Shown piece after piece: positions 17,076 to 24,084 of a DNA stretch of 64,000 nucleotides. The first letter of the stretch is position 1. Every line of letters begins with the position of its first letter. Position numbers and translations under genes: made by a program. The notes below the pieces were generated by a model, which worked only from the letters and a program-made list of their open reading frames with translations, was not told where the DNA came from and did not search any database. Origin of the DNA: Brevibacillus sp. (GTDB lineage: Bacteria > Bacillota > Bacilli > Brevibacillales > Brevibacillaceae); contig JACDOF010000015.1 of NCBI GenBank assembly GCA_017656235.1, forward strand, positions 1 through 64,000, read 5' to 3'.

Positions 17076-17357
17076 TCACGCGATCACACGTCCGATATAC
17101 AGCGCCAGGAACAGCACGGGGAGAAACAAGAAGATTACGGCCACAGCGACCGTGAACTGCCGTGTCGTTGTGTTTGTCGCAGCCAAGAACAGCGGACTGA
17201 CCACACTGTCGCCGACCAGCGCGTGCAGTTCGTCCCGGTGTTCCCTCATCCAACTGGAATAGGTGAGGATTTCCTCCCCATCATGAATCAAAAAGACAAG
17301 CGGAAAGAGCCAAATCAACTGTTTGATCGAAATTTTCTGCCCCCATTTTCCCAACAT
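17076..17357 (-). CDS. HXXEE-domain membrane protein, short form
   Basis: Starts with a basic KWGQKISIKQL segment, then LIWLFPLVFLIHDGEEILT, the HxxEE motif in the first helix that defines this family of putative membrane enzymes. Known members are usually around 150-200 residues with four or more helices; this one stops after 93 residues and two to three helices, followed at once by a terminator. It is therefore either a minimal member or truncated. The NCS2 stump nearby supports local decay. Ribosome site upstream of 17357 is weak. Confidence 0.6.
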   Translation of the reverse strand: MLGKWGQKISIKQLIWLFPLVFLIHDGEEILTYSSWMREHRDELHALVGDSVVSPLFLAATNTTTRQFTVAVAVIFLFLPVLFLALYIGRVIA

Positions 17358-17384: not shown

Positions 17385-18320
17385 TTATCCTTTTTGCAAA
17401 AGTTGATCAAGTTCCGCCGGATTGTACCCCTTTACTGCCTTGTCACCTACAACGGTAACCGGTACACCGAGGAAGCCGAACCGTTCCACTTCGTCGCGGT
17501 ACTCCTGCCGTTCCATCACATCGCGCACTTCATGGTCAATTCCCCGCTGCTTCAGGTACTGTTTTACCAAATCACAGTCGATGCATCCCTTGGTCGAGTA
17601 AACGATTACCTGTGCGGACTGCGGTGTCATATTCTGCAGCATGCCGCTGACGATTGCAAAGGAGCGCTCGGCAGCCAGTTTGGTAAACTCCACGAAGTTA
17701 ACGTGAGCGGAACCATCTGCCTTGTCCGACATCGAGCGAACAATGACAAAGGGGATCTCGTTCATTGCACAGACCTGGGCTACTGCCGCCCCCTCCATCT
17801 CCGTGCAGTGGGCGGAAAACTGCTCATACAGCCGCTTCACTTTCTCCCGGTCCGCCAGGAATTGATCACCCGAGAGAATCCGTCCTTCGATGACGCGGCT
17901 CTCCCCCCCAATCGTCTCTCCAGCGCGAACCGCCAGCCTCACCAATTCGGCATCAGCTTCCCACACCCACTTTTCCTGATACGGAATCTGGCCCGGTTGA
18001 AAACCGAGTGCCGTTACATCCATGTCGTGCTGGAGACAGTCGGTGGAGACGACGATATCGCCAATCTCCAGTTCAGGATGAACCGCTCCTGCCACGCCGG
18101 TAAAGATGACCCGATCCACCTGGTATTGATCGATCAGGATTTGCGTGCAGACGCTGGCGTTTACCTTTCCCACGCCCGACTTGCAGAGGACAACGTTCTG
18201 ACCGGCGAGAATCCCTTCCCAGTATGTGATTCCAGCTCTCACTGATGATGTCGTCTTTTTCATCGCTGCTTGATACAGTGCGATCTCTTCATCCATCGCG
18301 CCGATGATCCCGATACGCAT
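17385..18320 (-). CDS. MTA/SAH nucleosidase fused to a C-terminal glutaredoxin-like domain
   Basis: Residues 1 to about 232 are a complete 5'-methylthioadenosine/S-adenosylhomocysteine nucleosidase: IGIIGAMDEE with the Glu 12 position, FTGVAGAVHPELEIGDIVVS, CTEMEGAAVAQV (catalytic-site Glu near 174) and VRSMSDKAD with the catalytic Asp near 197. Residues about 237-311 form a glutaredoxin/NrdH-like domain: VIVYSTKGCIDCDLVKQYL with a CxxC pair, and GVPVTVVGDKAVKGYNP with the cis-proline. The usual enzyme is about 230 residues. ATG 18320 follows AGGAGG. The frame is continuous, so this is a true fusion unless misassembled. It would release adenine from MTA, SAH or 5'-deoxyadenosine; the redox domain may regulate or accompany this step. 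Confidence 0.88.
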   Translation of the reverse strand: MRIGIIGAMDEEIALYQAAMKKTTSSVRAGITYWEGILAGQNVVLCKSGVGKVNASVCTQILIDQYQVDRVIFTGVAGAVHPELEIGDIVVSTDCLQHDMDVTALGFQPGQIPYQEKWVWEADAELVRLAVRAGETIGGESRVIEGRILSGDQFLADREKVKRLYEQFSAHCTEMEGAAVAQVCAMNEIPFVIVRSMSDKADGSAHVNFVEFTKLAAERSFAIVSGMLQNMTPQSAQVIVYSTKGCIDCDLVKQYLKQRGIDHEVRDVMERQEYRDEVERFGFLGVPVTVVGDKAVKGYNPAELDQLLQKG

Positions 18321-18360
18321 GGCTGGTACTCCTCCTGTTTTTTCTGTATCCGATCCTGTG

Positions 18361-19377
18361 TCACTTCTCTTTGCTTTGCGACCTCGTACTTTCGCGATGC
18401 TCAATCCGATGCGGCAGGACAACAACATGCTCATCCACATGCTCGTTGTTCATGTACTTGGTCAAGAGGCGCATCGCCACCGCGCCAATATCATACATGG
18501 GCTGTACCACACTGGTCAGGCGCGGCCGCACCATTTCGGCCAGGCGAACGTTGTCAAAACCGATAACTTCGACATCTTCCGGTACGCGCAGCCCTGCATC
18601 CTGGACGGCGTGAATGGCTCCGATCGCCATCTCATCACTGGCGGCAAACACAGCCGTGGGCGGCTGGTCCAGCTTGAGGAAGTTGTTCATCGCCTTCAGC
18701 CCGGAGTCGTACTGGTAGTTCCCGCTGGCCACCAATTCCTCATGGTACTGGATTCCCGCATCAGCCAGTGCCTGCTTGAAGCCCTCGAAACGCAGCAAAC
18801 CGCCGAGCGGATCATTGAGCGGGCCGGTGAGCATCGCGATCCGGCGATGCCCGTCCCGAATCAACAGGCGAGTCGCGTCGTAGGCCGCCTGAAAGTGGTC
18901 AATGGTCACCGATGGCAGCGAACTCTCCACGTCGCGGGTCGCGGCCAGTACAACTGGCACGGCAGCCGTCGACAGAACCTGCAGATGGGCGTCTTTTACC
19001 TCGGCACCCATGAACAAGAGCCCGTCCACCTGCTTTTCCAACAGGGTGTTGATCAACTGCAGCTCCTTTTCCAACCGCTGGTCAGAGTTGCACAAGATGA
19101 TGTTGTATTTGTACATGGTGGCAATATCTTCAATTCCGCGCGCCAATTCGGCAAAGAACATGCTGGAGATGTCCGGAATAATCACACCGACAGTGGTCGT
19201 CCTTTTGCTGGCAAGCCCTCTCGCCACCGCATTCGGCCGATAGCCCAGGCGCTCAATTGCGGCCAGCACTTTTTTCCTCGTAGTCGGCTTGACATTGGGA
19301 TTACCGTTGACGACACGGGAGACTGTGGCCATCGAGACGCCTGCTTCCCGTGCCACATCGTAGATCGTAATCGGCAT
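18361..19377 (-). CDS. ccpA: Catabolite control protein A
   Basis: LacI-family global carbon regulator acting with HPr-Ser-P at cre sites. The [24 protein letters not shown] and the hinge [18 protein letters not shown] are essentially the CcpA signature, and the sensor domain begins [23 protein letters not shown]. With ATG 19377 it has 338 residues. Location beside aroA(G) matches the Bacillus order. A weak GGTGG site precedes; the in-frame GTG at 19389 is an alternative start. A terminator at 19523-19561 separates it from aroA(G), so it may have its own promoter. Ends 40 bases before the nucleosidase fusion gene. Confidence 0.93.
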
Positions 19378-23601: not shown

Positions 23602-23931
23602 TCAGGCGTTAACAGCTTCCGCAATCGCCTGTTTGGTAATTTTCCAGTGTGATGCATGCCACTTGACCGCACCATCTTCGAGCAAAAAGATCTGTGGGGA
23701 CTCGTGCTTGATCCCGTACCGGTCCTCCACCTCGTTGGAAACGGGCCGATCTTCCCGGACCAGAATGACGGCAGCAGGGATATCGTTGGTTTCCAGATAA
23801 GCGGTAAACTCGTCGTGCGCTGCCGTACTGATCGGGCAGATCGTGCTGTGTTTAAACAGCAGCCGCTTGCCTGGTTGGTTGACGAATTGGTCAAGCTCCT
23901 CAATGGAGTGCAGCTCGGTAAGCGTCGGCAT
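23602..23931 (-). CDS. brxC: Monothiol bacilliredoxin, YtxJ/BrxC family
   Basis: A 109-residue thioredoxin-fold protein with the family motif TCPIS (single active cysteine near residue 31), the cis-Pro region in IKHESPQIFLLEDGAVKWHASHW and an acidic N-terminus. BrxC proteins reduce S-bacillithiolated proteins in bacillithiol-producing Firmicutes. ATG 23931 follows GAGGAGGAGG. First gene of a probable pair with phhB. Confidence 0.88.
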   Translation of the reverse strand: MPTLTELHSIEELDQFVNQPGKRLLFKHSTICPISTAAHDEFTAYLETNDIPAAVILVREDRPVSNEVEDRYGIKHESPQIFLLEDGAVKWHASHWKITKQAIAEAVNA

Positions 23932-24084
23932 GTTTTCCTCCTCCTCTCTCATTGACGAAAAGCATGAAGCACGTAGGCTCATTCACAGTATAAGAGAAAA
24001 CGGCAGCCAAAGCCAGCTTACCCGCCACCGGCGAGAAAAAAGACAGCGCCTCCTCTCACCTTGCCAGGTGAAAGCGGAGCCACT

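Follow-up and report, generated by a model that had tools for sequence, protein, structure and literature searches.

A methylthioadenosine nucleosidase with a C-terminal glutaredoxin-like domain, as a fused or split gene pair, across Brevibacillaceae

The closest described relative of the protein considered here is the MTA/SAH nucleosidase MtnN/Pfs (MTAN; NCBIfam PRK05584; PDB 4qez, 4f1w, 1jys), with which it has fold, catalytic motifs and a family-level score in common. It departs from MtnN/Pfs in adding a C-terminal redoxin, and in belonging to a host that has an AdoHcyase-family protein and no match to LuxS. For the second half, the nearest described proteins are NrdH and YruB (TIGR02194, TIGR02196; PDB 3ic4, 1h75), which likewise have a glutaredoxin (Grx) fold, a CxxC, a cis-proline and an end resembling G[FY].P..L; however, the present Grx scores under both curated cut-offs, its family mostly reads CVDC or CIDC, and members are either fused to MTAN or, when unfused, linked to ytxJ (12 of 28 loci). 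Bifunctional MTANs have been named before in the MTAN-phosphatase models PRK06698 and PRK14697, but there the second activity is named as a phosphatase, and our protein falls short of each (191.9 bits against a cut-off of 768, and 194.8 against 260). Firmicutes also offer a precedent for joining Grx to a metabolic enzyme: the Grx-NrdB of Facklamia ignava, where the Grx reportedly reduces its own enzyme, NrdB (PMC6187632). Searches of open-licence PMC papers turned up no mention of an MTAN-Grx fusion, nor did passages of the methionine-salvage review PMC6302742. Both domains belong to known families; what is new is their combination, its spread, and the mosaic of split and fused states.

The gene lies in a 64,000-nucleotide stretch of a Brevibacillus sp. 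contig (JACDOF010000015.1), hereafter the window, and reads from an ATG at 18318-18320 to a stop at 17385-17387 on the minus strand, with no internal stop in the open reading frame. The features referred to below, all on the minus strand, are as follows.

17385-18320, minus strand: mtnN-grx fusion ORF, 311 residues plus stop, one frame (Pfam and NCBIfam matches)
18331-18336, minus strand: AGGAGG ribosome-binding site of mtnN-grx, 10 nt ahead of the ATG
17634-18320, minus strand: MTAN domain, residues 1-229 (Pfam, NCBIfam, AlphaFold model, solved structures)
17610-17633, minus strand: linker, residues 230-237, joining the last modelled MTAN helix (209-229) to the first modelled Grx strand (238-242)
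17394-17609, minus strand: glutaredoxin-like domain, residues 238-309 (Pfam, NCBIfam, model, nearest solved sequences)
17574-17585, minus strand: CIDC (CxxC), residues 246-249; CxxC in 39/39 family members
17457-17468, minus strand: cis-proline motif GVPV, residues 285-288; G[VI]PVT in 39/39 family members
18361-19377, minus strand: ccpA, adjoining the fusion gene upstream across a 40-nt gap (Pfam, NCBIfam; a neighbour kept in relatives); start at MPITIYD picked by eye, alternative ORF start 19443
23602-23982, minus strand: ytxJ/brxC, bacillithiol-system redoxin, 5.3 kb upstream of the fusion gene (Pfam, NCBIfam)

Directly downstream of the fusion gene sits a small gene for an HXXEE-motif protein (17076-17357, minus strand), which among all fetched loci occurs only in the window and in the genus-mate G035 (54%).

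The product of mtnN-grx is a genuine two-domain protein. An in-frame fusion of MTAN to a Grx with CxxC and cis-proline, as described in an earlier note on this DNA, is borne out by the 311-residue frame and by scores above both Pfam cut-offs: PNP_UDP_1 at residues 2-228 (198.2 bits; cut-off 25.1) and Glutaredoxin at residues 238-295 (47.7 bits; gathering cut-off 22.9). An AlphaFold model built from a 78-row alignment, which comes without an interdomain error map, has a mean pLDDT of 91.6 (against 37.8 from the single sequence) and a pTM of 0.75, with MTAN secondary structure through residue 229 and a Grx-like pattern from residue 238.

The nucleosidase half looks intact. It scores 273.5 bits against the NCBIfam MTAN equivalog PRK05584 (cut-off 169), and the model superposes on solved MTANs with Z up to 35.7 over residues 1-234, a comparison whose listed Foldseek and VIA-align matches are MTAN and other phosphorylase-fold chains and which barely tests the Grx part. 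Residues E12, E176 and D199 align with the E. coli catalytic residues E12, E174 and D197, the first and last of which appear in PDB titles. The EMEG and SDxAD motifs are found in 39/39 family MTANs, and EE at positions 11-12 is invariant in the consensus of those 39. For the Grx half, the nearest solved sequences are 3ic4 and NrdH proteins, yet it reaches 58.2 bits against a cut-off of 85.75 for the NrdH model TIGR02194, and 61.4 against 88.55 for the YruB-type model TIGR02196. Among the 39 family members its CxxC reads CVDC in 20, CIDC in 12, CIEC in 5, and CSDC and CVEC in 1 each.

A domain search over relatives, as the earlier note had suggested, places mtnN and grx together in each of the 39 family genomes searched (Brevibacillus and its kin). 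The junction is a single ORF in 33 of them, several single-contig assemblies included, and the fused matches that carry a species name come from Brevibacillus panacihumi (two) and B. fulvus (one). The same join in 33/39 genomes rules out assembly error, sequencing error, chance and strain-specific stop loss. In the remaining six (G027, G029, G030, G031, G033 and G034) the genes are adjacent, and a separate ATG opens grx no more than some tens of bases from the mtnN end, preceded by Shine-Dalgarno (SD) matches to AGGAGG of 6, 6, 5, 5, 4 and 4 of 6. The earlier note had reasoned that homologues with a stop here would imply an assembly error; these six do have the stop, but a separate grx start follows it, with an SD match of 5-6 of 6 in four and 4 of 6 in two, so the split is a natural alternative state rather than an assembly artefact. 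Across the 33 fused genes, in-frame ATGs within the 60 nt that precede the Grx strand have SD matches of at most 4/6, and a single GTG, in G035, reaches 5/6; with no strong internal SD-ATG in those 60 nt, Grx is evidently made as a fusion, and an internal start yielding free Grx was set aside, the G035 GTG excepted.

The fusion appears confined to the family at the depth searched. An order-wide search returned the same 39 genomes and none from other families, and 16 MTAN loci outside Brevibacillus all stop after the MTAN. Across the phylum, 29 of 398 genomes gave matches as strong as E 1e-60; among these strong MTAN matches, the other 28 end by query residue 267, counting G096, whose match extended only through stops. 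The Grx-search matches listed run down to about E 3e-14, with at most 14 candidates scored per genome, and fusions more distant than that may exist. Long Grx-containing frames in G260 and G363 were judged by eye to be spurious upstream readings, and five fetched frames of about 420-430 residues proved to join Grx to a thioredoxin-reductase-like protein and are not MTAN fusions. In these five (L181-L185, from other Bacilli) it is a different glutaredoxin that is joined to the flavoprotein, with scores below NCBI's TRX_reduct cut-off; in Brevibacillus L149 a similar Grx is, by eye, a separate gene between trxB-like and peroxiredoxin-like genes.

What might such a protein do? The host genome encodes four other PNP_UDP_1 proteins, namely two purine-nucleoside phosphorylases, a futalosine hydrolase and a uridine-phosphorylase-like protein, and since these are other enzymes the fusion carries the genome's only recognised MTAN. 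The reading we favour, with confidence somewhat better than even, is that this sole recognised MTAN of the cell carries a tethered, independently acting dithiol redoxin belonging to a BrxC-linked thiol network, both activities being those predicted from the domains. By family membership, the MTAN half would carry out ordinary hydrolysis of 5'-methylthioadenosine, and also of 5'-deoxyadenosine and SAH, to adenine and the ribose product, with methylthioribose (MTR) passing to MtnK. The Grx half would act as an independent thiol-disulfide reductase whose CxxC attacks disulfides, or mixed disulfides with low-molecular-weight thiols, on other proteins, and it may be re-reduced by bacillithiol/BrxC or by a thioredoxin-reductase system. 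The covalent join would fix co-production and 1:1 stoichiometry and put the redoxin on the MTAN dimer, without gating the nucleosidase.

The metabolic setting is consistent with these assignments. That the host uses bacillithiol, as had been supposed from the window, agrees with BshC in 38/38 family genomes searched, one BrxA/B-family protein in the host's own genome, and YtxJ/BrxC inside the window itself. MtnK and the AdoHcyase family are each found in 38/38 family genomes, the latter by a Pfam match split in two pieces, and LuxS in just 1/38 (L154, G022), the host having no match. With no LuxS match and an AdoHcyase-family protein, the host does not use this MTAN to supply LuxS. As MTR has a route through MtnK and S-ribosylhomocysteine has none through LuxS, MTA and 5'-deoxyadenosine are likely the main substrates.

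One competing account is a neutral operon fusion, in which neighbouring mtnN and grx were joined by loss of a stop, both parts work as before, and the join brings no benefit. In keeping with this, grx already sits in the frame of mtnN in three of the six split genomes (G031, G033 and G034), with a lone stop between. The linkers, too, are variable: from the last MTAN helix to the Grx strand, the 33 fused genes have 7 residues in 7 genomes, 9 in 8, 10 in 4, 11 in 13 and 17 in 1, and the sequence is equally unconserved, with many linkers rich in Ala, Ser, Thr and Pro. Both halves are under purifying selection, with a median omega of 0.042 for MTAN and 0.062 for Grx, whose highest value is 0.31, drawn from the 51 of 528 fused-fused pairs inside the set dS limits. 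What tells against neutrality is the retention of the join in so many genomes, together with evidence that the state has changed more than once. The MTAN + CcpA tree requires a minimum of two switches between the states, and a tree built from five proteins in 20 genomes (a named B. panacihumi and 19 of the 39, with fewer than half the columns filled in three rows) rejects a single switch (AU p=0.0009), although the smaller MTAN + CcpA data set (two proteins, 49 rows) does not, with p=0.054 when fused genes form one clade and p=0.26 when split genes do. There has thus been more than one change, whether by fusion or by fission, with the larger data set rejecting one and the smaller not. In a poorly resolved Grx tree (77 columns), the Grx of split G034 comes out next to the fused ones of the host genus (96/92). 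If the join were useless, or its halves uncoupled as in the favoured reading, 33/39 fused genomes and two or more switches of state would be unexpected, and a coupling that escaped this analysis may exist. We rate the neutral account as unlikely.

One such coupling would be redox gating or protection, in which the tethered Grx prevents oxidation or bacillithiolation of an MTAN cysteine (C172, C46, C95 or C184) and MTA/SAH turnover thereby tracks thiol state. The cysteines are certainly there: C172 and C95 occur in 39/39 family MTANs and C46 and C184 in 38, and C172 adjoins the catalytic loop, two residues before the EME motif. Moreover, MetE, the methionine synthase of B. subtilis, is a known target of S-bacillithiolation (PMC4360819). 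The idea that adenine release is coupled to thiol state, put forward in the earlier note, is not supported, however. Among 35 unfused relatives C172 is present in 35, C184 in 29, C95 in 18 and C46 in 14, such that no cysteine is specific to the fusion, and the linker between the domains varies from 7 to 17 residues. A purpose-made switch would be expected to have a fusion-linked cysteine or a fixed linker, and neither is seen, which favours an independently acting redoxin. MTAN hydrolysis, in contrast to NrdB, requires no reductant, and the Grx therefore cannot be its electron donor in the manner of Grx-NrdB. On this evidence gating is distinctly unlikely. C172 may possibly be a thiolation site of this MTAN subgroup, judging from its position in the alignment; the corresponding residue is alanine in structure 4qez and cysteine in 39/39 family and 35/35 related MTANs. 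Finally, the Grx domain is very improbably an NrdH-type electron donor of ribonucleotide reductase that happened to land on MTAN: NrdH is among its nearest solved structures, and Grx fused to NrdB serves as an RNR reductant (PMC6187632), but its TIGR02194 score and those of three unfused relatives (L128, L122 and L062) lie below NCBI's NrdH cut-off, and nrd genes were not recognised in the neighbourhoods examined, a weak check by eye.

The BrxC link within the favoured reading of an independent, tethered redoxin draws on the unfused relatives of the Grx. The earlier note also suggested that the redox domain could act on a methionine-cycle partner, but the surroundings of these relatives point to BrxC and bacillithiol at 12 of 28 loci. 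A model of the Grx alone was searched against 398 Bacilli genomes, and 28 loci outside the family were fetched (the 24 best and 4 weaker matches). At 12 of these 28, ytxJ lies directly before the stand-alone grx on the same strand, with matched parts 8-14 nt apart, and the three YtxJ proteins scored from these loci all pass NCBI's YtxJ cut-off. The 12 loci come from 11 genomes of genus g10, whose CcpA-MTAN sequences group among named Paenibacillus (2 genomes examined), and from G117. At the other 16, including 4 of the 16 closest relatives, ytxJ was not found in the stretch fetched. YtxJ similarity in the class sample has a gap between a close subtype (E below 1e-40) and the next match (4e-36), and the close subtype is made up of 36 family genomes of the sample, the 12 grx-linked genomes and G305. 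Outside the family, then, grx stands beside ytxJ in 12 of 13 genomes with the close subtype; G305 has no grx match at 1e-10. A role as monothiol bacilliredoxin, with the motif TCPIS, has been proposed for YtxJ (PMC4360819). The window protein reads ICPIS.

Nearness to ytxJ within Brevibacillaceae is a different matter. There the distance to ytxJ, upstream and on the same strand, is 4.9-8.5 kb in 35 of 36 sampled genomes, and G025 has the gene on another contig; outside the sample, it is 10.4 kb away in split G033, and the 8.2 kb of upstream sequence fetched for split G034 does not contain it. The order ytxJ-aroG-ccpA, which we take to be that of B. subtilis, is probably old in Bacilli, so this proximity is no independent evidence. 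Relatives without grx have either ytxJ-ccpA-mtnN (L044, L045, L095-L097) or ccpA-mtnN (L041-L043, L098, L099) at their mtnN loci, and from this gene order mtnN was probably already next to ccpA before grx arrived. A broader proposal, which we advance tentatively and would not yet call likely, is that BrxC/YtxJ has in this Grx subfamily a partner so far overlooked: a dithiol redoxin serving the bacillithiol system and accompanying one YtxJ subtype across Bacilli. Within Brevibacillaceae it would have left the side of brxC for a place behind mtnN and there become joined to MTAN, perhaps repeatedly, which would connect methionine salvage with redox repair by bacillithiol.

Brevibacillaceae thus hold a stable combination of two well-known protein families across a whole bacterial family. 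Because fused and split states exist side by side, the value of the covalent join is directly testable. Some of the unfused relatives, in turn, suggest a CxxC redoxin that may work next to BrxC in bacillithiol users, a lead that can be pursued genetically.
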